Assembly (NCBI GenBank): GCA_023301795.1 | Contig: JALZVU010000091.1 | Coordinates: forward strand, 1 to 44,982 | DNA length: 44,982 nucleotides | Source: Granulosicoccus sp. | GTDB taxonomy: Bacteria; Pseudomonadota; Gammaproteobacteria; Granulosicoccales; Granulosicoccaceae | Reading direction: 5' to 3' | In this document: positions 2,713 to 20,929 of the stretch, one piece after another | Position numbering within the stretch: position 1 is the stretch's first letter | How the letters are laid out: each line of letters begins with the position of its first letter | Notes under the pieces: generated by a model | What the model was told of the DNA's origin: nothing | The model's input: only the letters and a program-made list of their open reading frames with translations | Database searches by the model: none | Program-made: the position numbers and the translations under genes

Positions 2713-2730
2713 CTATGCGTTCTCAGGTGT

Positions 2731-3648: not shown

Positions 3649-3722
3649 TGTTGTGTGTATGTCTCAATTGGGGATCTACGAAAAAAACCTATGCCGGAAA
3701 GGCTGGGTGAGATAAAACAGGC

Positions 3723-3754
3723 AAAAAAAAACCGGACAACATTCGCCCGGTTTT
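3723..3754 (-). terminator. Intrinsic terminator between pqqA and pqqB
   Basis: On the minus strand an AAAACCGG / CCGGTTTT stem (3747-3754 and 3728-3735) is followed directly by a run of T residues (the A-tract at 3723-3731 on the plus strand). This is a typical Rho-independent terminator placed inside the operon. Partial read-through would give abundant pqqA message and less pqqBCDE, which fits the need for a stoichiometric peptide precursor. Confidence 0.85.
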
Positions 3755-3803
3755 CTCAATCTTTGTGTCAATAGCAGCGAGGCTGCCGTTAACAGCAAAT
3801 CAT

Positions 3804-3878
3804 TTAGCGATTCGCGAAATACATTGTGATTTCAAAACCGAACCGTACGTCAATTGCTACTGGTGTTTCCCAAGTCAT
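3804..3878 (-). CDS. pqqA: PQQ precursor peptide PqqA
   Basis: A 24-codon gene, too short for ordinary ORF lists. The peptide starts MTWETPVAID and has the two residues that become PQQ in the conserved spacing: Glu16 and Tyr20 (core EITMY). The ATG at 3878 is preceded by a GAGGA ribosome site about 8 bases away. PqqA is bound by PqqD, cross-linked by PqqE, then trimmed and matured by a protease, PqqB and PqqC. It is the first gene of pqqABCDE. Confidence 0.97.
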   Translation of the reverse strand: MTWETPVAIDVRFGFEITMYFANR

Positions 3879-4242: not shown

Positions 4243-5181
4243 TTATTGTGTCTGGCGACTGACATTTATCCGTCGCTGTACCGCTGTAATATCCACGTAG
4301 CGCGGTAGAAAATGCCACAGCAACAGTAGAAGGGCGAGCGACGCTGGTATCCACCGAATGTCAGTTAATGTGTCTCTGCGTGCAGCAAACGAATCACTTT
4401 TAGCTTCGCTAACGAGGTTATCAACTGAATCCAGAACCACAAATTCCAGATTGGTTAGTCGAGCCAATGAGGTCAATCGTTCATCGTCACGTTTGGACAA
4501 CTCCTCGCCGCCGATGCGTGAACCTGCAGTAACGCGTTGCACCACATCAGTCGCACTCCAGAATCCAATTGGATTGCCTGCCGGGTCAGTTTTGGGAATG
4601 GGCACAGGCTTCGAGCCGCCTACGCCCACCAGCATGCCACTTACCTCGAATTTGTCGGTGTTCGGAACGCCGCGCTGGCCTTGTTCCAGAGGTGGTGCTT
4701 CCTGCCCATCTGTCATGAATATAATAGAAGCTGGCGCGCTGAATTCATCGGCTGCACGCATAATCTGGTGAATACCTTTGCCAATGCTGCTACCGTTGTT
4801 CCAACGCATTGAGCCGCTGACACTGGCTAGTGATGACACTAGGCCATCGTAATGTGCGCACACTTCCAGTGGCGTGAGGAGGGTTAATGTACGCCGCCCA
4901 GTGAATACACTCCAACCAACGTGTGATCCACAGGGCAGGCTTTGTAGAAGGCCTGCGGCCATCGTCTTTGCATAATCCAGTCGTGTGGCTAACTCGCCGT
5001 TAGTACGAACATCAGCGACGTTCATGCTTTGCGATATATCAAAGCCGATTTGGAATGTGTATACGTTGCGTTCAATGGTCACCGGTTTTAGCAGCGGTGT
5101 TAGCAATAGTAGCAATGCGGCTAGCAGTACAATGCGGTTAGGGCGGCTGAATAGTTTTTTGATAAACATCAGCGGGTTCAC
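4243..5181 (-). CDS. mxaL: vWA-domain membrane protein MxaL
   Basis: Last gene of the mxaRSACKL operon. The 312-aa product has a first membrane helix at about residues 17-33, a von Willebrand factor A domain with a MIDAS motif DISQS (D48, S50, S52) and a TDGQE loop, and a second membrane helix near residue 285-305. MxaL is known from methylotrophs as one of the proteins needed for metal insertion into periplasmic methanol dehydrogenase; the vWA domain would sit in the periplasm. The start is a GTG overlapping the mxaK stop as GTGA (5178-5181). Assignment rests on the gene order and topology. Confidence 0.85.
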   Translation of the reverse strand: MNPLMFIKKLFSRPNRIVLLAALLLLLTPLLKPVTIERNVYTFQIGFDISQSMNVADVRTNGELATRLDYAKTMAAGLLQSLPCGSHVGWSVFTGRRTLTLLTPLEVCAHYDGLVSSLASVSGSMRWNNGSSIGKGIHQIMRAADEFSAPASIIFMTDGQEAPPLEQGQRGVPNTDKFEVSGMLVGVGGSKPVPIPKTDPAGNPIGFWSATDVVQRVTAGSRIGGEELSKRDDERLTSLARLTNLEFVVLDSVDNLVSEAKSDSFAARRDTLTDIRWIPASLALLLLLWHFLPRYVDITAVQRRINVSRQTQ

Positions 5182-5750
5182 GGCAAGTCCTTTTTCTCAA
5201 ATCCAGGCACAATGACATTCACGCTTTTTACCGGCTCCGATCCGTCATCATCGTCTCGATCAGTGCCCTCTGGTGCCAAACGCAATGCACGTTCAAGGTT
5301 ATACCGAGCTGGCCAATACTCTGGTGCCTCTGACAATAAATCGCGATAGCGCTGTTTGGCTAGCTCCACCATCGGCAATGACTTGCTCGATATTTGCTGT
5401 CCATCCTTAAGCGCTTCTCGCAAATACGCATTGGCAAGATTGTATTGAGCGTCTACACGAAGCGTAGCGTCGTCACTGTCGTTGATCAATGTGGTTAACA
5501 CGCGTTCTGAATCTTCCAGGTTGTCGCCGTTCGCCAAGGCACTACCCAGGTTCAGTTGAACCGCTGGTTTATCAATCATGTTTTTAGAAACGGTTAGCTC
5601 ATCCTCAGTTGCAATGGCATTCGGGATTGAGTTAACAGCACTTCGAAGTTGCTCGTTGTTATAAAGAGCAAATAACTGCCATATCATTAGGCCCACGAGT
5701 GACGCTGCAGCTACTGCGAATAGTTGATGAGCACTACGACGTGTAATCAT
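5178..5750 (-). CDS. mxaK: TPR-type membrane protein MxaK
   Basis: A 190-residue protein with a single N-terminal membrane helix (about 11-30) and a helical region with TPR-like pairs (around residues 75-150, e.g. DAQYNLANAYLREAL and YWPARYNLERAL). Position between mxaC and mxaL and size fit MxaK, part of the methanol dehydrogenase metal-loading set. The longer frame from 5798 would run deep into mxaC; the ATG at 5750 overlaps the mxaC stop as ATGA, so it is preferred. It probably forms a scaffold with the two vWA proteins. Confidence 0.82.
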   Translation of the reverse strand: MITRRSAHQLFAVAAASLVGLMIWQLFALYNNEQLRSAVNSIPNAIATEDELTVSKNMIDKPAVQLNLGSALANGDNLEDSERVLTTLINDSDDATLRVDAQYNLANAYLREALKDGQQISSKSLPMVELAKQRYRDLLSEAPEYWPARYNLERALRLAPEGTDRDDDDGSEPVKSVNVIVPGFEKKDLP

Positions 5751-6757
5751 AATCTGTGAACTCTGATGGTGGTCAGAACCGCCAATACCAGGCAGCAAAT
5801 TGCGGCTGCGATGTAGAACCAGCGGCTGTAATCCACCCTGGGTATTTGCTCAAGATAAGCCAGTGGCAGGTTCTGCTGTTGGTCAATTTCCTGTACCGCC
5901 TCTTTCATGGATTCTGGATCATTGGCTTGAAATACACGATATTCCGTACCTAACTGTTGGAAGAACTGGTGCAAAGCGATTTCTTCAACCACATCCTCGG
6001 CATCAGGCCCGACAGTTTCCAGATCAGGACTGTTCGCGCTACTTTGTATGTAAATAAAGTACAAGCTGATGTTGTTACGCGTAAGCCCTGCGCGTATTTG
6101 CTGCTGCGTTGTGTCATCAAGTCTGGCTCCGCCATCGGATACCAATAAAATGGCTCGGCTACCTGAATAGCTCCGACCATCAAACTGTTCTATCGCCGAT
6201 ACCAGTGCAAGCCCCATGTTGGTCTTGTTGGGGCCTCTGCCGATACCGCTGGCCGCAAGGCCTGCCAGAATAAGGGCTTCATCATCGCTGAAAGGCGCAA
6301 CAGGGATGGCTGAGACATTGAACAGTGTCAACGCGTATCGATTGTCAGGCCGCGTATTAACAAGCCACGATAATGCCTCTTTAACCACTTGGTTCTTCGA
6401 CACACTGGGCCGAGCCTGTTCACCGGGTTTTAATTGATGGCGGCGCACTTCAGCATCCATGCTTGCACTTCTATCCATTAAAACAGACAGTTCAGCGCCA
6501 CGCCCGATGCGTTCTATGTAGTTTTTAGATGTGCCTGGTTGTGCCAATGCAATAATCAGTGTTGCAAGGCAGACGGCCGCGACACACGTGCCCACCTTCC
6601 GCAGCGTCTGTCCTAAGGTGTCCGCAGGGAGCCATACCAACGACGGTATTCCAATGCTGTCTCGTTGTCGTTCAAACAGTGGAGTTAATGCCAGAGGCAG
6701 CAATAAGAGAACCCATGGTAAGCCGAAATCAAGTTGAAAAAGCTCTGGCAGATTCAT
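5747..6757 (-). CDS. mxaC: vWA-domain membrane protein MxaC
   Basis: A 336-aa BatA/BatB-like protein: membrane helices near residues 14-27 and 57-72, then a vWA domain with MIDAS motif DRSAS (D95, S97, S99) and an SDGGA loop, and a C-terminal helix (about 313-331). The layout matches MxaC of the mxaRSACKL set. It overlaps mxaA (ATGA, 6754-6757) and mxaK (ATGA, 5747-5750). MIDAS sites bind divalent cations, which fits a role in metal delivery to the quinoprotein; whether the metal here is calcium or a lanthanide is open. Confidence 0.87.
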   Translation of the reverse strand: MNLPELFQLDFGLPWVLLLLPLALTPLFERQRDSIGIPSLVWLPADTLGQTLRKVGTCVAAVCLATLIIALAQPGTSKNYIERIGRGAELSVLMDRSASMDAEVRRHQLKPGEQARPSVSKNQVVKEALSWLVNTRPDNRYALTLFNVSAIPVAPFSDDEALILAGLAASGIGRGPNKTNMGLALVSAIEQFDGRSYSGSRAILLVSDGGARLDDTTQQQIRAGLTRNNISLYFIYIQSSANSPDLETVGPDAEDVVEEIALHQFFQQLGTEYRVFQANDPESMKEAVQEIDQQQNLPLAYLEQIPRVDYSRWFYIAAAICCLVLAVLTTIRVHRL

Positions 6758-7779
6758 GATGGGCTTTGGCTGGTGTTCTCAGGGCTATTGATGGCGCCGC
6801 CTTGTGTGTCAGCTTGTTTTTTATCATGAGCGGTATTTGAAACAGCGGCTAGACTACTATCAGTATTTGCAGCTTTTGTAGATGACAAGGATGCGTCAGA
6901 GATGCTCGTTGTGTAGCGTTTTTCTGCCTGATAGAGCCGTTTGGAAAAATTAATGATATCGAACGGTTCGTGTTGCGATTCGGGGGCAAAAAAACGGGTA
7001 GACGATAAGGCGAAGAACTGATTTATTTCCGATTCGAAGGGCTTTAGCCATGAGCAGTTGCGACTCAGTTCAATAACCGTACTACTGACAATACTGCGAC
7101 CGGCGCTTTGATTAAACGCATTGTGCATAATTAACCAGCCTTCATTGTTTTTTGCATCATTACCGCGCGCAACGTGGCGGATGGCGTGGTGGGCGTGAGC
7201 AAAGGGTAGTGCTCGGGCTTCTCGCCAGTTTCTCCACAACCACCATGCTAGCCATATTGCCAGCAAGGCAGACAGCACTATTGCCATTATCAACAAGTTG
7301 CGCCATAGAGATTCAGATGCGGGGATGCTTGCCAGCTCGTCAGCTTGAATCGCTGGCAGTAGATTGTTGGTGTCGCTCACAGCCGGTAATAGGGGTGCGA
7401 TGCTGAATGGCCAGGCAGGTACATTAATATCCACCTGAGTCTCGGTTGCAAGTGTCAGAGCAGGCAACGCCACAACGCGCACATCAGGTGGCGCATTGAT
7501 GAGCTGATATTGGATGGTAAGCCATTGTGCGTCGTCGCTAATGGTAGCAGCGCTGCGAGTCACCCAGCGACCCACACGTTGTTCGGCGGGTAGAGATTGC
7601 AGAGTATGTACAGTGTCATCTATGGATAGCGCTATTTTTTGCTCTAGCACATCGCCGAGCGTGTAGCCGAATGCTCTCTGTGGATTCGTAACGGTTGTGT
7701 CGAGGATATCTGCTGCGTGGGTAGCTTGTAGTGCAGATACGGTGATAATAAAAGCAAATAGTCTAACAACGCTGTTCAC
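6754..7779 (-). CDS. mxaA: MxaA-like protein, periplasmic domain plus membrane helix
   Basis: A 341-residue protein with an N-terminal signal peptide (cut near THAA, residue 23), a periplasmic beta-rich domain to about residue 155, one strong membrane helix (161-183, Trp-rich) and a cytoplasmic helical tail with low-complexity end. MxaA has this design and is required for calcium incorporation in the classical enzyme. The start is GTG, overlapping the mxaS stop as GTGA (7776-7779). Sequence conservation in this family is low, so the name rests mainly on synteny and topology. Confidence 0.78.
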   Translation of the reverse strand: MNSVVRLFAFIITVSALQATHAADILDTTVTNPQRAFGYTLGDVLEQKIALSIDDTVHTLQSLPAEQRVGRWVTRSAATISDDAQWLTIQYQLINAPPDVRVVALPALTLATETQVDINVPAWPFSIAPLLPAVSDTNNLLPAIQADELASIPASESLWRNLLIMAIVLSALLAIWLAWWLWRNWREARALPFAHAHHAIRHVARGNDAKNNEGWLIMHNAFNQSAGRSIVSSTVIELSRNCSWLKPFESEINQFFALSSTRFFAPESQHEPFDIINFSKRLYQAEKRYTTSISDASLSSTKAANTDSSLAAVSNTAHDKKQADTQGGAINSPENTSQSPS

Positions 7780-8657
7780 GAGGCGTGCTCCATAAAGTAC
7801 CGCGACAAGCGCTCGGCGTTAAACTCACTCTCAATAAAGAAAGGCTTGCTGTTTCGTTTGGCAAACAGATCAATAAGGTTCTGTCGTTGACTCTGCACGT
7901 TCTCAAGCCACTGTTCGCGCTTGTGCTCGCTTATCCAGAGCTGACGCCTTTGTTGGCTTTCAAGGTCCCTTGCAAATAGCAATTGACCAGCAGCAGGCGG
8001 TACAACTTCAGTTTTATCCCAGATGACGATGGGCACCAGCGTGGTGTTTGAAAGTTTGTCCAAAGTGCTGTCAACAGTATTCAGAGGCCAGTGAAAGTCA
8101 CTGAGTAAAAAGACCAAGCCGTTTGTACCTTCAATCTGATTCACGGCAGTCTGGAAGGCTGAAATTGTTGATTTTTGTGAGCTGGATTTGCCTTGAACTG
8201 GAGTGGCTGGAATAGCATTGTTAAGTGTGTCGGCCATCAGCGATCCGATAGCACGTCCCCGACGCGGTGGCATATACAGGTCTTCGCGAAACTGTTCGTC
8301 AAACGCAAGCATACTTATCGCATCGCCATAGGCATGCGCGCTAATTCCCAGACTTTGCAGAAATTGAGTGGCGACGTTTAACTTACCCGGCTGTCCAAAG
8401 CGCATAGAGGTGGACATGTCGATTAAGACGTGAACTGTGATAGATGCTGGTTGCAAGTAGGTGCGTACCAGCCACTCACCGCGAACATCTGTAATGCTTG
8501 CTCGCAAGTCCAGACGCCTGGGGTCAGGCTGGTCAAACAGTCGGGCATGTGCTGCGAAGCTCATGCCCGATCCCCGGCTGCTTCCTCGATGAGCACCCGG
8601 TCGTGACCCTGCTGTAGAGCCAGGTACACGGTAAACAAACTCTTCGGTTTCGTTCAT
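7776..8657 (-). CDS. mxaS: DUF58-type protein MxaS
   Basis: A 293-aa cytosolic protein of the DUF58 family, which pairs with MoxR AAA+ ATPases. Early arginine/glycine-rich segment (residues 10-31), a conserved DPRRLDLRASI stretch near 45-55, then a vWA-like fold with DMSTS (D80, S82, S84) and a final segment containing the SDFHW motif. The start could be the GTG at 8660 (GTGA overlap) or the ATG at 8657 (TGATG overlap); the ATG is chosen. It lies between mxaR and mxaA as in known methylotroph operons. Confidence 0.87.
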   Translation of the reverse strand: MNETEEFVYRVPGSTAGSRPGAHRGSSRGSGMSFAAHARLFDQPDPRRLDLRASITDVRGEWLVRTYLQPASITVHVLIDMSTSMRFGQPGKLNVATQFLQSLGISAHAYGDAISMLAFDEQFREDLYMPPRRGRAIGSLMADTLNNAIPATPVQGKSSSQKSTISAFQTAVNQIEGTNGLVFLLSDFHWPLNTVDSTLDKLSNTTLVPIVIWDKTEVVPPAAGQLLFARDLESQQRRQLWISEHKREQWLENVQSQRQNLIDLFAKRNSKPFFIESEFNAERLSRYFMEHAS

Positions 8658-9679
8658 CACCGTGGTGAGGCAACTCTATCCATCAGTGCTTTGGTGAAGG
8701 CTGGCGCGATCTCGCTGCGTCTTAGTTCATAGATGGGCGAAAAGAATACGCGGTGGCCAAGTGCCGACGGTAAGACGGCGTGTACATCTTCTGGAGTCAC
8801 GTAGGTTCGTTCGTCAAGCCAGGCGACAACTCTGGCAGCGCGTGTCAGCGCACTCATGCCCCGAGGGCTGGCTCCTGCCAGAACGAGGCGTTTAATATCC
8901 ACGCCTTCGATCTCAATACCGTAGTCAGCAGGTGATGATGTTGCTTTCCAGATGTCCAGTAAATACTGTTCGATGGTGTCGCTGGTGGTCACCATCGTCT
9001 GGATCTGTGCTGCAACGTCGTTGAGTTGATAACCGTCGCAGACACCGCCGTCCAGCGTATCAATCAAGGTGTCGGCATTGTGATATCGGGTTTGTGTCAA
9101 AAGGGCGCGTCGTATATCGGGATCATTGGGGGTGGCCATGTTCAGCTCGAACATGAAACGATCTCTGGCTGCCGCAGCAAGTTCAAAGGTTTCCTCTTTT
9201 TCCACTTTGTTGCGATCGGCAAAGACTGTGAGGTGTGGAAAGTCGTACTGCCGGTTAAACGCTGAAACGGTTCGTTCGGCCATGGCTCTGAGTAGTAGAG
9301 ACTGTACTTGGGGTCGTGCTCTGTTGATTTCGTTAAAAAAGAATGTGGTTAGTTTTTCACCGTGGCGCAGCAGCGGGCCGGGGTCTATTCTGGGCTGACC
9401 ATCGGCATTGACGTAGGTATGGTAGACGAGATCGTTAGGCATAAGATCAATGGTGCCTTCAACCCGCTCAAAGTCACCGCCGACACATTGAGCGAAGGCG
9501 CGCAGCACTGTTGTTTTGCCGACGCCCACATCCCCCTCAAGCAGAACATGACCTCGTGCAAAAAGCGCTACGTTGATCAGTCTGATGAGCGCAGGTTGGC
9601 CGATTACAGTTTTGTCGATTGCCGATTCCATTGATAGCGCTTTAGCGCGCCAGTCGGCATGTTGAGATTCAGTGAACAA
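8657..9679 (-). CDS. mxaR: MoxR-family AAA+ ATPase MxaR
   Basis: First gene of the maturation operon; 340 aa. The MoxR AAA+ core is clear: Walker A GDVGVGKTT (49-57), Walker B region with FFFNEINRA (112-121), and the C-terminal lid with AGASPRGMSALTRAARV. MoxR ATPases act with vWA proteins as metal-insertion chaperones. The usual Walker B aspartate is Asn116 here (NE instead of DE); Glu117, the catalytic base, is kept. The start is a TTG at 9679 with an AGGA ribosome site about 9 bases upstream; the next ATG (9631) would remove a helix usual in the family. Confidence 0.9.
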   Translation of the reverse strand: MFTESQHADWRAKALSMESAIDKTVIGQPALIRLINVALFARGHVLLEGDVGVGKTTVLRAFAQCVGGDFERVEGTIDLMPNDLVYHTYVNADGQPRIDPGPLLRHGEKLTTFFFNEINRARPQVQSLLLRAMAERTVSAFNRQYDFPHLTVFADRNKVEKEETFELAAAARDRFMFELNMATPNDPDIRRALLTQTRYHNADTLIDTLDGGVCDGYQLNDVAAQIQTMVTTSDTIEQYLLDIWKATSSPADYGIEIEGVDIKRLVLAGASPRGMSALTRAARVVAWLDERTYVTPEDVHAVLPSALGHRVFFSPIYELRRSEIAPAFTKALMDRVASPR

Positions 9680-9824
9680 AGGCGTTTATCCTGATTGCGG
9701 TTCAAGTAAAAAATGTCGGATGAATATCAGCGTACATAAGATGGGCAATTTAAGATGCCATACGTAGTACTACTACTGGCTGTGATGTGATTTCTAAGCA
9801 CGGTTAGTAATATGTTGCTTTTGG

Positions 9825-10301
9825 CTAGTTTTTACCGGGAACGAGGGAATGTGGTGCATCGATGAAATTGATATTGGCATCGCGTATCTGAACTTGCTCC
9901 AGATTGCCTAGTTCTTCAATGGCTCCTGCGGTGTTAGCCACTTGCCCGATAACAGGTAGACCTTTGCGTAGCTTACGCGTGGCTTTGTCTACTTTATCGT
10001 GTAGCGCTGGGGAGTAGGGCAGACGATAGGCGCGTGGCTCTGTCTGCCCCAGACCTTGAGTAAATTCTGTACCCCATAAGTAGATGTTGTTAGGTTCGTC
10101 GATATTGACAGCATGCAGAAAAAACTGATCTGGTAGATCACGTTCGGTTGGCCAGCCTTGTATGCCTGGCCAAGAGCTGTATACGGCCCAGAAGTATCCG
10201 ACGACAACTACATTGCACAGAGTTTTCATACTCCAGTGCCAGGATGAATTCAGGTTGAGACCGAGCAGCAATACGGCGAGAGCGATATACGCCAGAATCA
10301 A
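9825..10301 (-). CDS. Conserved small membrane protein, function unknown
   Basis: A 158-aa frame with two likely membrane helices at the N-terminus (about residues 2-18 and 25-42), a GWP motif, and a periplasmic part with IYLW, PRAYRLPYS and LHDKV motifs. I recall the PRAYRLPYS-type motif from uncharacterised envelope proteins, but no function is known to me. The start shown is a TTG; the frame stays open upstream to about 10400 with no ATG/GTG, so the true start is uncertain. It sits between the ExbB/ExbD-like operon and mxaR, in the same direction as both. Its link to either is inference. Confidence 0.6.
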   Translation of the reverse strand: MILAYIALAVLLLGLNLNSSWHWSMKTLCNVVVVGYFWAVYSSWPGIQGWPTERDLPDQFFLHAVNIDEPNNIYLWGTEFTQGLGQTEPRAYRLPYSPALHDKVDKATRKLRKGLPVIGQVANTAGAIEELGNLEQVQIRDANINFIDAPHSLVPGKN

Positions 10302-10679
10302 GGTGTTGACGTCTAGTTCTGAAATAGTGCGTCTCCGTTTTCCAATTCTTGCTCCACAGTGTTGAATGCTGTTTATGCAAAATGGCGGTGATTAGAATTT
10401 AATCGTCGCTGTTGATATCCACAAAACCCCACCCGGCTCGGTCAAAGACAATGATTTAGTGACGACCTCGATAGGCGTCTGCTAGCACATTGGCTTGACG
10501 TTATTTCAGGATGACACGTATTTGTAGCTACCGTTCGGTAAATTGATTTCTGGTTTTTATGTTTAGCTTTTACTTTTATTTTGTTAGTTTGCTAACTAAG
10601 CCGCGCGTGTGACTACCTGTAACTTACATCATAGAGAACAAATGTCCAAGTGGTGCTACAACATGCTTTTGCATCATCA
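10302..10679. other. Gene-free, AT-rich spacer
   Basis: 378 bases with no credible gene on either strand. The right half is AT-rich and holds a short perfect hairpin (GTTAG 10583-10587 / CTAAC 10592-10596) without a T-run. The left 100 bases may encode the true N-terminus of the preceding small membrane protein, because that frame stays open. Confidence 0.5.
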
Positions 10680-11294
10680 CTACCTTGGTACCAGTGTTAG
10701 AGGAAGCTGGTTGACATCTATGATGTCCCCATTAGAAGCTACGCTGAAGCGTACTGCTGTTTTTTCAGTGCCTTTGCTTTCCAGTGTTGTAACGCCATAG
10801 TAGGCTACGGTGTACACGGGATTAACTTTCGAGACCTTGACTGACACTGGTACAGGGTCTGACGTTTCGCTCTCGTAGTAATGAAGGTTCACAACATATT
10901 CACCTGGGACAACGCCTCGTATGGCGGCTATTTCCTGGTTCAGCGGAATCTCCACATCAGTTCCATCGACATTCAGCGTATCGTTTAGCATGCCCCTGTC
11001 GTCTCTGTCGAGATGCACCAGATTGCTACTGCGGTTTCGAAACCAGATAGTGTTGCCTCCTGGATCACGTATCCATGTATCAATATCATCCGGACTACCA
11101 TCTGGCCAGCTAACCGTGATGATGTACTGCGCATCCACATCAATCTTGCCTGTTTTCTCGGCTGGATTAATAAACAGAATGGCAAGAAAAAACAGCAGAA
11201 TAAAACCTAATAGTATATTGAATAGTAAATCAGTGAAGGGGTCGGACCCTGCAACCGTTGTATTTCTGTAATGCCGCTTGAGACGAATACTCAC
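10680..11294 (-). CDS. ExbD-like protein with large periplasmic beta-domain
   Basis: A 204-aa protein. Its single N-terminal helix (about 22-43) is preceded by DPFTDLLFN, which aligns with the ExbD/TolR PFIDV motif and places Asp22 where those proteins have the proton-relay aspartate. The periplasmic part is not a usual ExbD domain: it contains SWPDGSPDDIDTWIRDPGG and LDRDDRG motifs, which resemble the DUF2135/YfaP-type Asp-rich beta-sandwich. The ATG overlaps the upstream channel gene as ATGA (11291-11294), so the two are coupled. Role inferred: a proton-motive-force driven stator that acts on an unknown periplasmic or outer-membrane target. Confidence 0.75.
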   Translation of the reverse strand: MSIRLKRHYRNTTVAGSDPFTDLLFNILLGFILLFFLAILFINPAEKTGKIDVDAQYIITVSWPDGSPDDIDTWIRDPGGNTIWFRNRSSNLVHLDRDDRGMLNDTLNVDGTDVEIPLNQEIAAIRGVVPGEYVVNLHYYESETSDPVPVSVKVSKVNPVYTVAYYGVTTLESKGTEKTAVRFSVASNGDIIDVNQLPLTLVPR

Positions 11295-12022
11295 AAGGCA
11301 ATTGAAACGTCCTGGCTACGTACTCGCTGACGAATACGCAGCATTAATCCCACCAAGTTTTCAGTTTGTCTGCCTAGTACCAGATACTGGAAGCTCAACA
11401 GACTGGCACCAATGAGGCCAGTTAGTGTGGTGTAGAGGGCTGTACCCATACCTCCACTCATGGCAATCAGCAAGTTCTTGAGGTCATCACCGCCCTCAAT
11501 ACTGATGTTGTCTAGTGTTGCAAATATAAGGATGAAGCCAATGATGGTTCCTAACAATCCAAGTCGAACAGTAAGATCTACAAAAAACCAGCCAAGTTCT
11601 GCAGGCGCACGCACGTTGTCTGCATGTATTTCAACAATGGCATCAGAGTCGTCGCTATTATTGTATTGCTCCATTGATATATCACTAATGTAGCGCTGCA
11701 GATAATCTGATTTGCCATCGTCATAATGGTGCAGTTCAGTAAGCCATCGACGAGCACTGCGTGTGTGTTGAAATATATGAAAAATATGCCATCCGCAGTG
11801 CGCTGACATCGCCAAGACCAATGCCATAATCACTGACGCCATATAGCTGGCATCCAAAGTAACGATTTGTGAGAACAACCTGAGATCCCACGCTACGTAG
11901 ACGCCAAATGTCATGAGCGTAACGAGGAGGAACCAGAGTTGCGGGAAAAATCCGCTATGGTCTGGCAAGTTTGATTGCTTTGGAACTATGTGCTTTCTGG
12001 ATAAAGAAGCTTTTTTACTCAT
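11291..12022 (-). CDS. MotA/TolQ/ExbB-type proton channel protein
   Basis: A 243-aa membrane protein. Helices are predicted at about 28-45, 61-78, 146-170 and 185-212; the last two carry the family pattern (VRLGLLGTIIGFI and GMGTALYTTLTGLIGA), with a cytoplasmic loop between. These motifs define the TolQ/MotA/ExbB proton channel. A longer frame starts with TTG at 12058, but ATG at 12022 overlaps the Sel1 gene stop as ATGA (12019-12022) and is chosen. With the ExbD-like partner it should form a stator complex; no TonB, TolA or flagellar gene is nearby. Confidence 0.85.
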   Translation of the reverse strand: MSKKASLSRKHIVPKQSNLPDHSGFFPQLWFLLVTLMTFGVYVAWDLRLFSQIVTLDASYMASVIMALVLAMSAHCGWHIFHIFQHTRSARRWLTELHHYDDGKSDYLQRYISDISMEQYNNSDDSDAIVEIHADNVRAPAELGWFFVDLTVRLGLLGTIIGFILIFATLDNISIEGGDDLKNLLIAMSGGMGTALYTTLTGLIGASLLSFQYLVLGRQTENLVGLMLRIRQRVRSQDVSIAL

Positions 12023-12528
12023 AGTGGTTCGCTTGCTAGAGCACCTAACTTGAGCCAACGGTCTCGAAGTACAGACATTTGCAATGGTGTAAGAACAAGC
12101 TCCACGGATAGCTGGCTGAGATAATTTTCAGCCCATGGGTTGTTAGAAATCTTGGCATGCACATACCAGCCAAACGCCCTTTCAGCGCTTTTGGTGACGC
12201 CTAGCCCTTGCTTGTAGAGATGGCCGAGATTGAGTTGCGCAGCACCGTAACCCTCGCTTGCCGCTTGATGATAAAGCTCTGCAGCTTTATTGTAGTTTTT
12301 TGGGCCACCTAGCCCCAGATAGTTCAGATTGGCCAACGCCGTTAGATACTGTGGATTACCCTCAGCTACCTCAGGCTTCAGAAAAGCACGTGCCTGTTGA
12401 AACTGTCCCTTGGCCATAGCATCAACGTAGTTGCTGGCTGGCCAACGTTCACGGGCGTGAAGGACGCCCAGAGCCAAAACCAACGCAACGAGTACGATAG
12501 CCCCGATCAGTTGGAGGAGTTTCCTCAC
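12019..12528 (-). CDS. Sel1-repeat membrane-anchored protein
   Basis: A 169-aa protein with an N-terminal membrane helix or signal anchor (about 6-22) followed by Sel1/TPR-type repeats (AAELYHQAASEGYGAAQLNLGHLY near 82-105, then a second repeat). Sel1 repeats mediate protein-protein contacts, often in envelope complexes. It is the first solid gene of the three-gene ExbB/ExbD-like operon. The start is a GTG at 12528 without a clear Shine-Dalgarno; an upstream small frame ends in a GTGA overlap, hinting at coupling. Confidence 0.78.
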   Translation of the reverse strand: MRKLLQLIGAIVLVALVLALGVLHARERWPASNYVDAMAKGQFQQARAFLKPEVAEGNPQYLTALANLNYLGLGGPKNYNKAAELYHQAASEGYGAAQLNLGHLYKQGLGVTKSAERAFGWYVHAKISNNPWAENYLSQLSVELVLTPLQMSVLRDRWLKLGALASEPL

Positions 12529-12620
12529 CGCGTTGTTCTGCAGCTTGTGTCAATGGTACTGTGATAGTACTTAATGGCACGCAACAGGCAACGACGTCGT
12601 TGTAACAAGTCAGTATTCAT
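12525..12620 (-). CDS. Possible small ORF coupled to the Sel1 gene
   Basis: A 31-codon frame starts with ATG at 12620 and its stop overlaps the GTG of the Sel1-repeat gene (GTGA, 12525-12528). The peptide is basic (RRR near residue 8, several Arg later). No clear ribosome site is seen. It may be a coupling leader for the GTG start, which itself has no ribosome site, or it may be chance. Confidence 0.25.
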   Translation of the reverse strand: MNTDLLQRRRCLLRAIKYYHSTIDTSCRTTR

Positions 12621-12810
12621 GGTAGTACTCACATAGCGGTGGTAGTCGCTACCGAGTAAACAGTGTCGTGCATGTGTTGCGAAAGTGTCAAGTGTTCTAG
12701 CCTTATGCATGATCGATGTTTATGCATGAAGAGAAGCAATATTTATGTTTCTCTATTAGATGAAATTTTTTGTTTATCAATACGCGTATCGACTGCATAT
12801 CGGAGGTTTT

Positions 12811-13629
12811 ATGACAAAAAAATTGCTAAATCGTCTGTTTTTATTCCAAGGCATGATGGTTTTTTTGCTGTTGACAGCCAGCAGTATTTTGCAGGCTGAG
12901 AGTAGTGAGCGGTGGCCAATGCTTAAGGATGCGTATTTTGGTGATAGCCCTATAGTGGCAGGCGATACTGTAATCAGTCTGCAAGCTCCCAAGCGGGCTC
13001 ATGATGCAGCAACGGTGCCTGTTGTTGTCAATGTTGTGGATAGCGGACGACAAGTGAAAGAGGTTTATCTGTTTGTTGACATGAACCCTCTACCGCTAGC
13101 CGGAATATTCAAATTCACAGAAGAAGCTGGCTTCTGGAGCGCTCTGGAGACACGAATCAGAATTAACGAGTACACCCATGTCCGCGCGGTGGGCGTGCTG
13201 GATAACGGCGAGCTTCACATGAGCGAGCGATTCGTGAAAGCATCTGGTGGATGCAGTACGCCAGCATTGGCGGATATGGATCAGGCAATGGCGCGTGCGG
13301 GGAAGATGAAGTTGTTTCTCAGCGAAGTATACGAATCAAAGGACTATCCCTCGTCAGAAGCTGTAATAAAGATAAGTCACCCGAATAATTCAGGTATGCA
13401 ATTCGATCAGGTATCGAGAAACTATATTCCTGCGTTTTTTGTAAATACCATCACAGCGCAGCTCGATGGAGTGGATATCCTGGATGTGGAAACCAATTTT
13501 TCAATGAGTGAAAACCCTGTTGTGCGAGTTGCTTTCCAGCATGGCGTAGAGGCATCATCTCTTTCAGTTACTGCTAAAGATTCTAAAGGCAACACGTACA
13601 GCCATTCCGCCGACATGCGCGTCGAATAA
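12811..13629 (+). CDS. Quinoprotein dehydrogenase-associated SoxYZ-like carrier
   Basis: A 272-aa secreted protein: signal peptide to about residue 29 (ILQA), a SoxY-like beta-sandwich (about 45-145), a GGC motif at 146-148, and a SoxZ-like beta domain (about 165-272). In SoxYZ a cysteine in a GGC-type swinging arm carries sulfur intermediates. Here C148 is the only cysteine in the whole precursor, which supports a carrier role. The family is named for its co-occurrence with PQQ enzymes; the cargo is unknown. The ATG at 12811 has a strong GGAGG site 5 bases upstream; a longer frame from 12760 lacks one and would spoil the signal peptide. Confidence 0.85.
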   Translation: MTKKLLNRLFLFQGMMVFLLLTASSILQAESSERWPMLKDAYFGDSPIVAGDTVISLQAPKRAHDAATVPVVVNVVDSGRQVKEVYLFVDMNPLPLAGIFKFTEEAGFWSALETRIRINEYTHVRAVGVLDNGELHMSERFVKASGGCSTPALADMDQAMARAGKMKLFLSEVYESKDYPSSEAVIKISHPNNSGMQFDQVSRNYIPAFFVNTITAQLDGVDILDVETNFSMSENPVVRVAFQHGVEASSLSVTAKDSKGNTYSHSADMRVE

Positions 13630-13658
13630 AGCCGCAACTCACGGGTTACGAAAGCGTT

Positions 13659-14027
13659 CTAGAAGCATCGAAGTGTAGATGCTGCCTGTACTTTCTGTAG
13701 CGCCTCAACGCGTGATTTTGCCCAGGTGGAGTCGCGGTAAAAAATGCCGCGTTGCCCTCTATCCATTTGCACCTGCATTATTGTCTGGATTTTTTCGTAA
13801 TCCTCAAAGGGGATTCTCTCTTTGATGTAATCTATGCTGCAAGAGCACTGATGCAGCGACTCACGGCTGTTGCCATTGGCTGCCATACAGCCCAGGACAT
13901 AGTCGGCTATAACAGGCGTTGGGTAAGGGGTCATACCATCAGTGGGTGTACATTCGTCACCGATTGCACTTGTGGACTGTATCAAGGCTGTTAACATTAC
14001 TACTGGAACGAATACCGTGTAATTCAT
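13659..14027 (-). CDS. Secreted Cys-containing protein, function unknown
   Basis: A 122-aa product with a signal peptide (cut near SAIG, about residue 22) and a small helical domain containing VLGCMAANG and HQCSCSIDYI motifs plus a C-terminal RCF. Five cysteines in the mature part suggest disulfides or metal binding in the periplasm. It is convergent with the SoxYZ-like gene (29 bases between stops) and points the same way as the next unknown gene. Not recognised beyond being a plausible conserved partner of quinoprotein loci. Confidence 0.65.
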   Translation of the reverse strand: MNYTVFVPVVMLTALIQSTSAIGDECTPTDGMTPYPTPVIADYVLGCMAANGNSRESLHQCSCSIDYIKERIPFEDYEKIQTIMQVQMDRGQRGIFYRDSTWAKSRVEALQKVQAASTLRCF

Positions 14028-14105
14028 GGTTTTAGATTGATTTAGAGGTGTTGGGGAGAGTTCGCTGGTTGTCGCAATTGAGCAGTGGCTAAAATGTATT
14101 GAGAG

Positions 14106-14783
14106 CTACATAAGCGACAAACTTCGTTCGAACACATCGGAATTTCGTGTGGCTGATACTTGCACACTGAATACGCCTCCGGGTATTTCATCACTTAGTT
14201 CTATGCTGAAGCGCGACTGCCTGAGAACGTTGTCTGTACCCAGATATTCATCATTTAAAAAAGGGTAGAAGGTCAGGCGAGTTCCAGAGTATTCCTTGTC
14301 TGCATACTTCATCGTATGAGCTTCCAGTGCAACATCGCTACCTGCAAGAGAATCACGAATGCGGTTGCGAAAATATAGCGCCCCGCCACCAGATTGTGAA
14401 CTCATGGTTTGTGCAATGTGTTCCAGCATGGCAATAATGACTGGGTTGCCCCGGTATCCTGAAAATGGCGGTAGTGGAAGGTGCCGTTCGCCAGTGAGAA
14501 ACGATATTGTCACGTCTCTGGTTTCGTCATCGCGCTTTGCGACGATGGATAGGCTCGCCTTATCGTTGATGCTGTCAGACACTGCATCTTCGCCTTCATA
14601 GCTATAGTTCAGCGTTTGGCCTGCTGTGGTGTTGCTAAGATGACTTCGGTCGTAAATCCATGACTGGGCTTCATTTAACCCTTCAAAAGCGTTTGACGTT
14701 TGAATTGCGCATACTGAAAAAAACAGTGCACTTGCAAAGAAAAGGCTAGGTCGCAAGCGTGATCGTTTGTGCGCACTTGGCAT
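14106..14783 (-). CDS. Secreted protein of unknown function in the quinoprotein relay cluster
   Basis: A 225-aa product with a cleavable signal (hydrophobic 13-28, cut after SNA). The mature part looks beta-rich (YDRSHL, LNYSYEGED, VTISFLTGER, YFRNRIRDSL), resembling uncharacterised periplasmic proteins found beside PQQ enzyme genes. No cysteine or metal motif stands out in the mature part. It is divergent from the metallohydrolase gene, with 201 bases between starts that must hold both promoters, and precedes the 122-aa secreted protein gene (78-base gap), likely as one operon. Confidence 0.65.
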   Translation of the reverse strand: MPSAHKRSRLRPSLFFASALFFSVCAIQTSNAFEGLNEAQSWIYDRSHLSNTTAGQTLNYSYEGEDAVSDSINDKASLSIVAKRDDETRDVTISFLTGERHLPLPPFSGYRGNPVIIAMLEHIAQTMSSQSGGGALYFRNRIRDSLAGSDVALEAHTMKYADKEYSGTRLTFYPFLNDEYLGTDNVLRQSRFSIELSDEIPGGVFSVQVSATRNSDVFERSLSLM

Positions 14784-14984
14784 GATTTGAATCCGTGTAA
14801 ATGTCGTAAGCGTGTAGCAATGTAGGGCTCAGCGTTCAGTAATGTCAAGGACGAAACTGTTGGCAACGTGCAATTCTATGGCAGCTTTGTGTTGATCGCA
14901 GTCGCTGTCTGATTTGAAAGCTAACAGCGTTTACAGCACGGGCATGCTTCGATAGTGTGGCGTGAAAGCTTGGAGGAGAACGAC

Positions 14985-15917
14985 ATGAGAGCTCTTTATC
15001 GGAAGGTGTGTTTAATCGTTGTGTTAGGTTGTTGGTGGTGTTTACAGGTGGTGGCTGCAAACGGTTTCACGGTTTCAGAAGTCGCTCCCGGAATTTACGT
15101 TCACGAAGGTGTTCATGAGCAAATATCATTAGCAAACCTTGGTGCCATCGGGAACTCGGGTTTTATTGTCGGTTCGAACTCTGTTGCTGTTATAGATCCG
15201 GGGGGAAGTGTGCAAGCAGGCAAGAATCTGAAAGGTGCGATTCGTAAGTTGACTGATCTGCCCATTCGCACGGTCATTCTTACGCACTTTCATGCTGATC
15301 ACGTGGCTGGTGCAATGGCGTTCAAAGAAATTAACAGCATTATTGCGCACGAAAACTATTCAAGCGCTCTCGCCCAGCGTGCCCAGTTCTATCTTGATCG
15401 TTATGACCCGCTCTATCAGGGGAGCGTTGAAGAGGTTTTCAGCCTGCCTACCCAAACGGTGTCAGTGGGGGACTCGCTGAATATTGATCTGGGTGGGCGA
15501 ATGATATCGATAGCAGCTCATCCGCTTGCTCACACCAATAATGATGTGACTATTCATGATCAGAACACCAACAGTCTTTGGGCATCAGACTTGGTATTTG
15601 CTCAACGTACGCCGTCACTGGATGGAAGTCTCAACGGGTGGTTGGACGTTTTGTCACAAATTTCGGCAATGAACTACGCATTGATTATTCCAGGGCACGG
15701 TAGGCCAGGTGCTCCTGCCGAATTGCTGGAGCCTCATATTGGCTACTTACAGCAGCTTAAAGACGAGGTTAACGTGCAGGTGGCAGCAGGGGTGGCGCTG
15801 TCTGTGATGCTTGAACATCATGATGCGACAGTTGACAAAGATTCTCAGTGGAAGCTGTTTTCTGTGCAGCACGGCAGTAATTTGGCTAAGGCCTATACAG
15901 AGCTCGAATGGGAGTAG
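14985..15917 (+). CDS. Quinoprotein relay system zinc metallohydrolase (SoxH-related)
   Basis: A 310-aa secreted metallo-beta-lactamase fold enzyme. Signal peptide to about residue 25 (VVAA). Zinc site: HFHADH (H101, H103, D105, H106), then AHTNND (third-ligand His), SDLVF (bridging Asp) and PGHG (last His). These define an active dinuclear hydrolase. The family is called the quinoprotein relay metallohydrolase because it travels with PQQ dehydrogenases and the SoxYZ-like carrier; it may release a cargo from that carrier (inference). The ATG at 14985 has a GGAGGAG ribosome site 6 bases upstream, so it is preferred over the longer frame from 14955. Confidence 0.85.
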   Translation: MRALYRKVCLIVVLGCWWCLQVVAANGFTVSEVAPGIYVHEGVHEQISLANLGAIGNSGFIVGSNSVAVIDPGGSVQAGKNLKGAIRKLTDLPIRTVILTHFHADHVAGAMAFKEINSIIAHENYSSALAQRAQFYLDRYDPLYQGSVEEVFSLPTQTVSVGDSLNIDLGGRMISIAAHPLAHTNNDVTIHDQNTNSLWASDLVFAQRTPSLDGSLNGWLDVLSQISAMNYALIIPGHGRPGAPAELLEPHIGYLQQLKDEVNVQVAAGVALSVMLEHHDATVDKDSQWKLFSVQHGSNLAKAYTELEWE

Positions 15918-16401
15918 CGAAACTGCCGCAATGACGTTGGGCATGTTATCGCAAGTTATTGATATGAAATAGGACTGAGCTTGGCAGTCGTTCAGATACG
16001 GTAAAAACAGATCGGCGATGAAGTAACGAATAATGTTGGCAACAGATTGTGTGAGCCAAAAGATCAATTGGTTGCTATCAATAAATACTTCGATTTATGT
16101 TGACCAGCATCAGGGTTTCGTTATACGTTTAACCTATCTGATCGTCTAGGGCATAGATCCTAATCGTGAGGGTGGTAAATACAAAGGGAGTATTATGGGC
16201 GGCCGATTGTTGCCGTCAGGTGCCTTGCCTTTTTTCAAGATTTCGCACCCGTGACTACATTGCTTCTCCCTTCGCTCTAACACGCGGATTCAAGCCGAAA
16301 GGTGCCCGCTGTGTCCTTTGAAAGCCGAGTGAATGTTGCACCGCACGTTCCAGCAGCATTTTCACCAGCTCGGATTGTAATTTCAACAAGTGGAGAGAAT
16401 A
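15918..16401 (+). promoter_or_regulatory. xoxF promoter and long leader
   Basis: 484 bases without a large gene. A candidate promoter is TTGACC (16100-16105) with TATACG (16122-16127), spacer 16. That would give a leader of about 265 nt. The leader holds a 19-codon ORF (16195-16254), a GGCGGC/GCCGTC hairpin, a T-run (16230-16235), and four alternating short complementary blocks: GGTGC (16219), GCACC (16245), GGTGC (16301), GCACC (16338). These could form alternative hairpins. The arrangement suggests post-initiation control of xoxF but is unproven. Confidence 0.45.
16195..16254 (+). CDS. Possible leader peptide upstream of xoxF
   Basis: ATG at 16195 with a ribosome site (AAGGGAG, 16184-16190) and a stop after 19 codons at 16252-16254. 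The peptide is MGGRLLPSGALPFFKISHP. It lies inside the proposed xoxF leader and overlaps the first two of the alternating complementary blocks. It has no obvious run of one amino acid as in classical attenuators, so it may be chance. Confidence 0.3.
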   Translation: MGGRLLPSGALPFFKISHP

Positions 16402-18210
16402 ATGAGGAAACCTTTCGCCAGATGTCTGGTGAGTGCAACATTGGGTATGCTAGCCATAGGGCTGTCGCAAGCCCATGCGAACGATGAAGTAAAAGAGTTG
16501 GCAGCTGACCCTGCTAACTGGGCGATGCAGACGGGAGATTACGCAAATACCCGTTACAGCAAGCTGAACGAAATAAACATCGACAATGCTAAAGATCTGC
16601 AACCGGTGTGGACATTTTCAACCGGTGTTTTAAGGGGGCACGAAGGTGGACCCTTGATCATTGGCGACACCATGTTTTTACATACGCCGTTTCCCAACCG
16701 CGTGTACGCCATGGACCTCAACGAAGAGGGGCGAATCAAATGGATGTATGAGCCGAAACAGGATCCATCCGTTATTCCGGTTATGTGCTGTGACACGGTG
16801 AACCGCGGTGTCGCCTACGCTGAGGGCAAAGTATTCTTGCATCAGGCAGATACCACTCTGGTGGCGCTTGATGAGAAAACCGGAGAAGTTATCTGGTCTG
16901 TCAAAAACGGTGATGCAGGTAAAGGGGAGACAGGTACTGCTGCACCGATGGTTTACGGTGATAAGGTTTTTCTTGGTATTTCTGGCGGTGAATTCGGCGT
17001 CCATGGGCACATTACGGCCTACAACATAGCTGACGGTTCTCTTGCTTGGCGTGGGTTTTCGACAGGGCCTGATGACATGACGTTGATGGATCCTGAAAAC
17101 ACAACACACCTTGGCCAACCCGTTGGTAAGGATTCAGGAACCGCTACGTGGGAAGGCGACCAGTGGAAAATCGGTGGTGGCACAACCTGGGGTTGGTTCG
17201 CGTTTGATCCTGAAGAGAACCTGGTTTACTACGGTACGGGGAATCCTAGTACGTGGAATCCGGTACAGCGTCCTGGCGATAACCGTTGGTCAATGACAAT
17301 CTTTGCACGCGATATCGATACGGGCATGACGCGTTGGGTCTATCAAATGACACCGCATGACGAGTGGGACTACGATGGCGTCAACGAGATGATCCTTGTT
17401 GATCAGGAGATGGAAGGTGAGATGCGCAAGACGCTCGTGCATTTTGACCGTAATGGTTTTGGTTACACCATGGACCGAGTCACTGGTGAGCTATTGGTTG
17501 CTGAGAAATACGATCCGGTTGTGAACTGGGCAACTCATGTAGACATGAAGACTGGTCGTCCTCAGGTGGTTGCAGAATTCAGTACTCATCAAAACGGTGA
17601 AGATGTGAATACAACCAATGTTTGCCCGGCAGCTTTGGGTACCAAAGATCAGCAACCTGCTGCGTATTCGCCACAGACTGGACTCTTCTACGTGCCAACG
17701 AATCACGTGTGCATGGATTACGAGCCGTTCGAAGTGGAATATACCGCTGGTCAACCTTATGTAGGTGCCACACTGTCTATGTTCCCTGGAGGTCGTGTGT
17801 CGGGTGACGGTACTGACAACCTTGGAAACTTCATCGCTTGGGACGCTGCCAAAGGTGAAATAAAATGGACCATCCCTGAAGCCTTCTCAGTATGGAGCGG
17901 TGCTTTGGCAACTGCCGGGGACGTGGTGTTCTATGGCACATTGGAAGGTCATCTGAAGGCTGTGAACGCTCATACAGGCGAAGAGCTGTATCGCTTCAAG
18001 ACACCATCGGGCATCATCGGTAATGTCACAACTTGGGAGCACCAGGGTAAGCAGTACATCGGTGTTCTGTCTGGTCTTGGTGGTTGGGCAGGTATTGGAT
18101 TTGCTGCAGGTCTTACAGGTGACACTGATGGCTTAGGTGCAGTTGGCGCCTATAAATCACTATCCAGTTACACCTCACTGGGTGGCGTACTAACGGTGTT
18201 TGCACTTTGA
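16402..18210 (+). CDS. xoxF: Lanthanide-dependent methanol dehydrogenase XoxF
   Basis: A periplasmic PQQ quinoprotein that oxidises methanol (and often formaldehyde or other alcohols), passing electrons to cytochrome cL. 602 aa: signal peptide to about residue 26 (QAHA), then the eight-bladed propeller. The vicinal disulfide is C129-C130 (MCCD). The metal/active site shows E197 (GGEFG), N281 (TGNPS), the catalytic Asp323 and, two residues on, Asp325 (motif DEWDYDG). This second Asp is the hallmark of XoxF; calcium-type MxaF has Ala there. The ATG at 16402 has a GGAG site 7 bases upstream; the GTG at 16390 overlaps that site and is rejected. No mxaI small subunit follows. Confidence 0.97.
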
Positions 18211-18229
18211 TTTAGCAAGCACGCTCATC

Positions 18230-18301
18230 GGCGCATCTCTACTGAACGTTTGGTAGGGATGTGCCTTTGGTTGAGGCGTCATCTGGCACGTTTGGATGAC
18301 G
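18230..18301 (+). other. Two tandem hairpins between xoxF and xoxG
   Basis: The first hairpin pairs GGCGCATCTCTAC (18230-18242) with GTAGGGATGTGCC (18253-18265): 13 pairs with two G-U wobbles and a 10-base loop, followed by TTTGGTT. The second pairs CGTCATC (18277-18283) with GATGACG (18295-18301). Neither has a full T-tract. They probably protect the 3' end of xoxF mRNA or terminate part of the transcription, lowering xoxG relative to xoxF. Confidence 0.65.
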
Positions 18302-18359
18302 GTGTTTCAGCCATACCAGCTTGCGTTTTTCACATCATTGTTTGGAAAAAAATTTTGTC

Positions 18360-18785
18360 ATGACCCGATACTTTGCAATTCTTCCTGCGATTTTCATTGT
18401 TGCGATAGCTTCTTCTTCCAGCCACTCCTCAGAAGCGGCGCCAGAATATGTTGTGCAGGATGGGCAAGTCGATAAAGCCACGTTCAACGGCTATCGTCGT
18501 TTCCACGGTACCTGCCATGCATGCCATGGGCAAGATGCCTTGGGTGGAAGCTTTGCTCCCTCGTTGGTGGAATCCTTGAAAACGATGGACTACGAGGCCT
18601 TTAAACAGACTGTTCTCGAAGGGCGGCAGGTGACAGACGCATCTGGTGCGGTAAACGCTATGCCATCGTTCGGAAACGATAAGAACATTACCAAGCACCT
18701 TGATGATATCTATCGCTACCTGGCAGCGCGTTCTGATGGCGTGCTGGATCCGGGCCGGCCCCCCAAGTTGCCAAAGCCGAAATAG
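18360..18785 (+). CDS. xoxG: c-type cytochrome, XoxG-like electron acceptor
   Basis: A 141-aa precursor with signal peptide (about 1-27) and one haem c motif CHACH (52-56); Met101 in AMPSF is the likely axial ligand. Cytochrome cL is the known electron acceptor of methanol dehydrogenases, and its place 149 bases after xoxF and before xoxJ fits XoxG. It is shorter than many cytochromes cL, so it is a compact form. The ATG at 18360 is chosen over a TTG at 18321 because it begins the signal peptide directly. The tail is rich in Pro and Lys. Confidence 0.87.
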   Translation: MTRYFAILPAIFIVAIASSSSHSSEAAPEYVVQDGQVDKATFNGYRRFHGTCHACHGQDALGGSFAPSLVESLKTMDYEAFKQTVLEGRQVTDASGAVNAMPSFGNDKNITKHLDDIYRYLAARSDGVLDPGRPPKLPKPK

Positions 18786-18840
18786 CGATAAAGACAGTAC
18801 AGACGATGACCATAGCGTTGAACGTTGTCAGAGATATGCA

Positions 18841-19680: not shown

Positions 19681-19779
19681 CACTCGTCTGGATTATCGAT
19701 GACGTTATCAGAACCTTGCAAAGAAAAAATTATGTGCAGATGGGCTTCCCTTTATATGATTAATTTCGGTTAGTTGCTC

Positions 19780-20913: not shown

Positions 20914-20929
20914 CGTTTGGTAACGTGAT

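Follow-up and report, generated by a model that had tools for sequence, protein, structure and literature searches.

Which enzyme does an mxaRSACKL operon serve when it lies beside xoxF, the gene of a lanthanide-type methanol dehydrogenase? The six mxaRSACKL genes are classically tied to MxaFI, the calcium methanol dehydrogenase. The question is raised by contig JALZVU010000091.1 of a Granulosicoccus sp. genome (GenBank assembly GCA_023301795.1), where mxaRSACKL is placed between pqqABCDE and xoxF-xoxG-xoxJ. The whole contig, a stretch of 44,982 nucleotides, is termed the window; it belongs, as contig 91, to a 5.78 Mb assembly in 313 contigs with 97% completeness and 2.95% contamination. It appears reasonably probable that the six genes make a MoxR-vWA maturation machine that is tethered to the membrane and has XoxF as its dedicated client, and that the operon is in a branch of mxaRSACKL separate from the one that serves MxaFI. 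XoxF is proposed as the client because of gene linkage in varied arrangements, co-occurrence and phylogeny.

The operon and its neighbouring methanol dehydrogenase

A preliminary description of the window, made from its sequence, had proposed six overlapping mxaRSACKL genes near xoxF-xoxG-xoxJ. Six open reading frames (ORFs) are indeed found on the minus strand in the order mxaR-mxaS-mxaA-mxaC-mxaK-mxaL, from 9679 down to 4243, and adjacent genes overlap by 4 bases, given a mxaK start at the ATG at 5750. The xox genes are nearby as proposed, but the range then assigned to the whole set, 4243-18785, ends before xoxJ, which starts at 18841. The features concerned are listed below, with the basis of each assignment in brackets.

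8657-9679, minus strand: mxaR, MoxR-type AAA+ ATPase (AAA_3 (MoxR) 2e-26; AAA_lid_2)
7776-8660, minus strand: mxaS, DUF58/vWA protein (DUF58 5.9e-15)
6754-7779, minus strand: mxaA, membrane protein built of a beta-sandwich at the N-terminus, one long membrane helix and a C-terminal helical region (operon position; alignment with 44 others; model with a predicted local distance difference test score, pLDDT, of 86)
5747-6757, minus strand: mxaC, BatA-like vWA membrane protein with a full metal-ion-dependent adhesion site, MIDAS (VWA_2 8.9e-8; BatA model 3.1e-10, under cut-off)
5178-5750, minus strand: mxaK, small TPR-like membrane protein (ATG at 5750, longest ORF from 5798; operon position; weak TPR match, E 0.026)
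4243-5181, minus strand: mxaL, vWA membrane protein (VWA_2 2.2e-6)
16402-18210, plus strand: xoxF, predicted lanthanide-type methanol dehydrogenase (TIGR03075 2e-226)
18360-18785 (approximate, ATG picked by eye), plus strand: xoxG, c-type cytochrome (TIGR03874 2.5e-34, under cut-off)
18841-19680 (approximate, ATG picked by eye), plus strand: xoxJ, MoxJ-like periplasmic protein (TIGR03871 5.3e-90)

At the protein level, the operon combines one AAA+ ATPase of the MoxR type with vWA proteins that carry MIDAS residues, as the preliminary description had it; this is seen both in the families and in the conserved residues of MxaR, MxaS, MxaC and MxaL. Residues were compared in 101 to 111 aligned operons, depending on the protein, divided into a group with mxaI and a group without it. 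The Walker A G-K-T and an FFFNEIN stretch of MxaR are conserved in both groups, and so are the MIDAS residues of MxaC (D95, S97, S99, T179 and D208 are invariant in 20 rows), the D-x-S-x-S of MxaS and the D-x-S/T-x-S of MxaL. Near the MIDAS of MxaL the groups differ at two positions: one is Q in 97% of the non-mxaI group but most often G (55%) in the mxaI group, and another is a fixed D in the mxaI group but variable in the other. These MxaL differences are a lead on client specificity, not evidence of it. The protein families support a putative ATP-driven MoxR-vWA machine in the inner membrane. MxaA and MxaK have no Pfam match at E 0.001. Comparison of the MxaA model with the PDB gave generic Ig-like sandwiches only (best Foldseek E 0.028, best Z 6.8), and since these are generic, nothing follows from them for MxaA function.

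The XoxF protein has the metal-site sequence HDEWDYDG. Its motif is Asp323-Tyr-Asp325 (DYD) when counted from the ATG at 16402, a start that is Met in 13 of 13 aligned rows, and Asp325 is thus placed as described before. Two XoxF structures, 6oc5 and 6dam, are its best matches among solved structures (E about 1e-289). On these grounds the protein is predicted to be a lanthanide-type methanol dehydrogenase. Two other pyrroloquinoline quinone (PQQ) dehydrogenases were the only further matches in the genome, with 42% and 39% identity. The 42% identical alcohol dehydrogenase (L002, G000 contig 8) carries DYD and therefore does not look MxaF-like; similar enzymes are widespread in the family in genomes without MxaC. 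A pattern search for the metal-site motif gave no match in the 39% identical enzyme.

MxaFI had been described as missing from the window, and a search of the genome extends this: MxaI was not found and no MxaF-like dehydrogenase was seen, in the operon or elsewhere, in a genome that is 97% complete, such that the absence is not absolute. The MxaI profile (PF02315) found no match in any of 57 genomes, i.e. the window genome and 56 relatives, a search in which no positive control matched. A repeat with the window genome and G024 again gave none. Elsewhere the same profile matched 9 of 78 named genomes (3/48 and 6/30), including those of Methylococcus capsulatus, Methylobacillus and Hyphomicrobium. 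G024 is a single-contig genome of the same genus; it has the same order of mxaRSACKL, a four-gene cassette and xoxFGJ.

Occurrence of the operon with XoxF

The window's family was represented by 48 genomes among 115 relatives. These are kin genomes and many are incomplete, and p-values thus overstate independence. Full or nearly full XoxF (at least 82% identity) is found in 9 of the 48, MxaC in 11, and both in 9. Accordingly, MxaC is present in 9/9 genomes with XoxF vs 2/39 others (Fisher p=3.3e-8; p=1.6e-6 when XoxF fragments of G023 and G067 are counted as XoxF). All six mxa genes and xoxF lie on a single contig in six further family genomes (G017, G019, G024, G029, G057 and G066), and this recurrence argues that the pairing is not chance or an assembly artefact.

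Two loci depart from the usual gene content. L055 (G068) has an extra mxaC copy in the operon, at 10339-11280, between mxaK and mxaL. L067 (G030), of the same family, has a divergent operon end at 8351-12597 (SoxH-like, mxaL, mxaC, mxaK, mxaA), whose MxaC has no settled position in the MxaC tree.

A wider survey used a genome scan with an MxaR alignment and covered the best 80 of 382 relatives, a set biased towards the window's kin. The nearest named MxaR relatives include a Chromatiales bacterium from Bugula neritina and an uncultured Granulosicoccaceae bacterium. Loci with an MxaR at least 63% identical to that of the window, termed window-like, number 57, and are found in Granulosicoccaceae, Methyloversatilis, Paraburkholderia, Caballeronia, Burkholderia, Variovorax, Sphaerotilus, Steroidobacter, Nevskia and others. 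All six genes are within the fetched DNA in 53 of these loci, xoxF in 20 (one as a fragment) and mxaI in none. When the genomes of 55 window-like carriers were searched (E limit for XoxF of 1e-150 in one set and 1e-120 in the other), XoxF with at least 57% identity was found in 53 and MxaI in 3. One of the two carriers without XoxF (L078) has a xoxF fragment at a contig end. The remaining 23 named loci have XoxF in 18 and MxaI in 6. The three MxaI-positive carriers, G119, G120 and G124, are Methyloversatilis-like, and each holds a window-like operon and a second, mxaI-linked one; their window-like operons were assigned from a 69-operon tree (L077), from the MxaR tree (L073) and by identity alone (L072).

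The position of xoxF relative to the operon varies. In the window's family xoxF and the operon are on opposite strands or 12-13 kb apart; in Variovorax and Paraburkholderia xoxF is upstream on the same strand, and in Methyloversatilis directly downstream. The operons of Paraburkholderia, Burkholderia, Variovorax and Methyloversatilis share the window's branch (see below) and its gene order, with xoxF and mxaR on one strand and 3.4-4.9 kb apart, but differ in their arrangement relative to xoxF.

One alternative is a client other than XoxF, such as another PQQ dehydrogenase or an unrelated envelope process, in which case the operon would be near xoxF by chance or shared regulation. The genome has the two further PQQ dehydrogenases, one with DYD; operon genes are present in G030 and G060, where XoxF was not detected; and in P. 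xenovorans (L087) a 31% identical PQQ protein is encoded directly downstream of the operon. Such a client is nevertheless rather improbable. XoxF is present in 53 of the 55 window-like genomes searched, and its linkage recurs in differing arrangements. Service to other PQQ dehydrogenases was set aside, as MxaC shows no association in the family with the PQQ dehydrogenases of about 40% identity (p=1.0).

In an even sample of 398 genomes spread over the phylum, where MxaC was scored on the best 5 candidates per genome and a few copies could be missed, XoxF (at least 57%) is found in 36, true MxaC in 13 and both in 11. True MxaC is set off by a clear gap, with the weakest at 336 bits and the next group from about 100 bits down. 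MxaI is present in 10 of the 13 MxaC genomes, and the other three (the window genome, G434 and G437) all have XoxF.

Two branches of mxaRSACKL

The neighbourhoods of mxaI were fetched and compared with xoxF-linked loci. Next to mxaI-adjacent operons, the large subunit has DYA or DFA in 18 of 18 readable cases (two more have no MxaF in the stretch). The xoxF-linked cases without mxaI have DYD or DFD in 26 of 26 (two more are fragments). In a joined tree of MxaR, MxaS and MxaC, covering 69 of 111 operons, the window's operon is in a 35-row branch with a Shimodaira-Hasegawa-like approximate likelihood ratio test (SH-aLRT) value of 100 and no mxaI-adjacent members. Forcing the window to group with the mxaI-adjacent operons is rejected by the approximately unbiased (AU) test (p=0.0009). 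The same constraint applied to ten operons from the window's group is also rejected (p=7.5e-7), although these ten were picked after inspection of the tree, which the test does not account for. The separate MxaC tree likewise keeps the window's group apart. The 19 mxaI-adjacent operons give 2 label changes on the joined tree, and a single origin of this group is neither established nor rejected by it (AU p=0.085). These trees support a putative XoxF-associated branch of mxaRSACKL that extends across beta- and gammaproteobacteria.

At the deepest (midpoint) split, the mxaI-linked side also takes operons that have no local mxaI, from Methylophilaceae, Methylococcus, Ferrovum, Piscinibacter caeni and G434. 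One such locus, in Methylococcus capsulatus Texas (L129), has mxaRSACKL without mxaF or mxaI in the 10 kb flanks, and an mxaI-linked set is present in the same genome (L229). When the MxaR tree is rooted with MoxR from other vWA loci, all 19 mxaI-adjacent copies are nested inside the others. This suggests that the calcium (mxaI-linked) branch derives from the others, and is a suggestion only, because the outgroup roots the tree through branches of length 5. In a tree built from 55 XoxF proteins, the operon label changes 3 times, and the XoxF of the window's family lies, with modest support, apart from betaproteobacterial XoxF, although the operons group together. This disagreement hints that the XoxF/operon pairing was made more than once.

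The window's operon is orthologous to the mxaI-linked ones, as opposed to being a general MoxR/Bat locus; this follows from the 336 vs 100 bit gap in MxaC and from the MxaR tree with its outgroup. Bat (BatA/MoxR) operons have the same logic of MoxR, DUF58/vWA and membrane vWA proteins, and the window's MxaC is a weak BatA match. However, other vWA proteins, taken as BatA-type, reach at most about 100 bits on the MxaC profile, vs at least 336 for true MxaC, and a MoxR near such vWA genes (present in 6 of 7 stretches) is 31-36% identical to the window's MxaR. The classical MxaFI methylotrophs Methylorubrum extorquens AM1 and Methylococcus capsulatus have the same six genes as the window, with the same order, domain classes, Walker A and MIDAS. 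Their mxaRSACKL follows mxaI and a DYA/DFA enzyme and falls with lanthanides, whereas that of the window adjoins pqq and xox, belongs to the other branch and is in a genome where MxaI was not found.

A second alternative is that the operon formerly served MxaFI and was retained after mxaFI was lost, and the preliminary description had left this open beside loading of XoxF. The classical tie of mxaRSACKL to MxaFI favours this, as does the position of the MxaI-less operons of Piscinibacter caeni, G434, Methylophilaceae and Ferrovum on the mxaI-linked side of the tree. A 2026 study of Sphaerotilus also interprets mxa genes without mxaFI as remnants (PMC13300288). The operon of Sphaerotilus mobilis (L120), however, is within the window's branch. 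That branch has no mxaI-adjacent members and resists grouping with them, window-like and mxaI-linked operons coexist in G119, G120 and G124, and even deeply diverged members retain the genes with their key residues. An MxaFI relic is therefore distinctly unlikely for the window's operon, though it may be the origin of those of the Piscinibacter caeni and G434 type. The link of the machinery to XoxF, the other part of the earlier proposal, stands on linkage, co-occurrence and phylogeny.

The combination of XoxF and mxaRSACKL without mxaFI is already published. Methylotenera mobilis JLW8 and M. versatilis 301 were reported in 2014 to have XoxF and two mxaRSACKL sets with mxaFJGI absent, and XoxF, XoxJG and MxaRSACKL are among the core Methylophilaceae genes (PMC4109929). 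These and other Methylophilaceae thus resemble the window in having XoxF and a complete mxaRSACKL without mxaFJGI; the Methylophilaceae copies in the tree, which are from other strains, are outside the window's 35-row branch, and no xoxF was found in their fetched flanks. What is new is the phylogeny, with its separate XoxF-associated branch. No paper that separates the two branches was found in a partial literature search that left out subscription papers.

Expression studies bear on the calcium branch. In M. extorquens AM1, La3+ strongly lowers the mxaI-linked mxaRSACKL, and xoxFGJ goes up (PMC6414531). In M. capsulatus, Ce lowers MCA0776-0789, the 'accessory genes' of MxaFI, taken here as mxaRSACKL (PMC10728633). 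Lanthanides are also reported to lower MxaR and MxaS in M. silvestris and MxaA, C and K in M. trichosporium. Since mxaRSACKL drops with lanthanide and is not listed in a transposon screen described below, these results suggest that XoxF in AM1 and M. capsulatus does not rely on the calcium-branch machine; the window's branch is not covered by those studies.

Several observations weigh against a machine dedicated to XoxF. Operon genes are present with no XoxF detected in G060 and G030, both of which are fragmented assemblies, and the XoxF fragments of G023 and G067 occur without MxaC. The operons of Piscinibacter caeni and G434 are xoxF-linked but are placed on the mxaI-linked side of the tree instead of in the window's branch, and thus linkage to xoxF is not confined to that branch. 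According to a 2024 review, XoxF does not require mxaACKLD or mxaRSEH (PMC11845868). The transposon screen, of lanthanum-dependent XoxF function in AM1, lists 28 genes hit at least 4 times, and none is from mxaRSACKL (PMC7391723). Lastly, no true MxaC was found among the best 5 candidates scored in 25 of the 36 XoxF genomes of the even sample. Of these, 21 are outside the window's class; within the class, no MxaC was found in 4 of 8 XoxF genomes. The MoxR/vWA machine occurs together with XoxF in some lineages and appears dispensable elsewhere. Because of the 25 genomes, the machine would be an aid for some XoxF lineages and is not a general requirement.

Neighbouring genes and a proposed role

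The overall order in the window is pqqE-D-C-B-A (423-3878, minus strand), mxaL-K-C-A-S-R (minus strand), a four-gene cassette (minus strand), a SoxYZ-like carrier gene (plus strand), two small minus-strand genes, a metallohydrolase gene, and xoxFGJ with further quinoprotein-associated genes (16402-23179, plus strand).

423-3648, minus strand: pqqB, pqqC, pqqD and pqqE (TIGR02108, TIGR02111, TIGR03859 and TIGR02109, all over cut-off)
3804-3878, minus strand: presumed pqqA, 24-residue PQQ precursor peptide (translation)
9825-12528, minus strand: four-gene cassette between mxaR and xox, encoding Sel1, MotA/TolQ/ExbB, single-helix and small membrane proteins (MotA_ExbB and Sel1)
12760-13629, plus strand: quinoprotein-associated SoxYZ-like carrier (TIGR04557 4.6e-70)
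14955-15917, plus strand: quinoprotein relay zinc metallohydrolase (TIGR04559 1.9e-89)
19774-23179, plus strand: PQQ-associated CXXCW rhodanese, 143-residue protein without a family, ABC-type binding protein and beta-propeller (TIGR03865, TIGR03863, TIGR03866)

The peptide is taken to be PqqA from its position and an E-x3-Y pattern presumed typical of it. In the cassette, family searches matched only MotA_ExbB and Sel1. Its 204-residue single-helix protein (10680-11294) resembles ExbD/TolR by eye; a structure prediction from sequence alone reached a pLDDT of 46 and was discarded. The cassette is near mxaR and/or xox in four relatives (L049, L050, L055 and L059) and, in the loci examined, is found only in the window's family. 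It is perhaps accessory to mxa/xox, possibly as a proton-driven partner. At 14106-14783, the window encodes a 225-residue protein without a family. In Paraburkholderia, Variovorax and Methyloversatilis loci, relatives with 24-28% identity to it are encoded directly downstream of xoxFGJ, which makes it a conserved neighbour of XoxF. A class III S-(hydroxymethyl)glutathione dehydrogenase gene (25137-26246) adjoins the xox cluster and is likely a formaldehyde outlet. A promoter/terminator scan found sites no more frequent than in shuffled sequence.

In the proposed mechanism, MxaR in the cytoplasm would spend ATP on remodelling MxaC and MxaL, the vWA proteins bound to the membrane, together with MxaS, MxaA and MxaK. 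The remodelled proteins would assist XoxF that has just been exported in acquiring its PQQ-metal cofactor, or in staying competent to do so. That the inserted metal is a lanthanide is the least certain step, and the label 'lanthanide-insertion chaperone' given to mxaRSACKL in the preliminary description is best kept as putative. The site of metal release before insertion into XoxF is not known, according to the same AM1 report (PMC7391723).

A real possibility, if short of probable, is that the machine matures XoxF but that its cargo is not a lanthanide: it may insert PQQ, or Ca as a stop-gap, or fold or protect the apoenzyme. Chaperone-like roles in the maturation of dedicated complexes are described for MoxR ATPases (PMC3893208), the mxaI-linked homologues act on a Ca enzyme, and no lanthanide-specific site was identified in the operon proteins. 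Nothing in the present data counts against this variant, and the data cannot separate metal from PQQ or folding. The strongest form of the proposal remains tentative and rather doubtful: that in many beta- and gammaproteobacteria the operon is a dedicated ATP-driven inserter of lanthanide, or of PQQ-lanthanide, for XoxF, and that the MxaFI calcium loader arose from it.

If these common bacteria of plant-associated and marine habitats do have a branch dedicated to XoxF, mxa accessory genes should not by default be taken for MxaFI relics in genomes with XoxF only. Lanthanide insertion into XoxF would then become testable in hosts with XoxF and the operon but without MxaFI.

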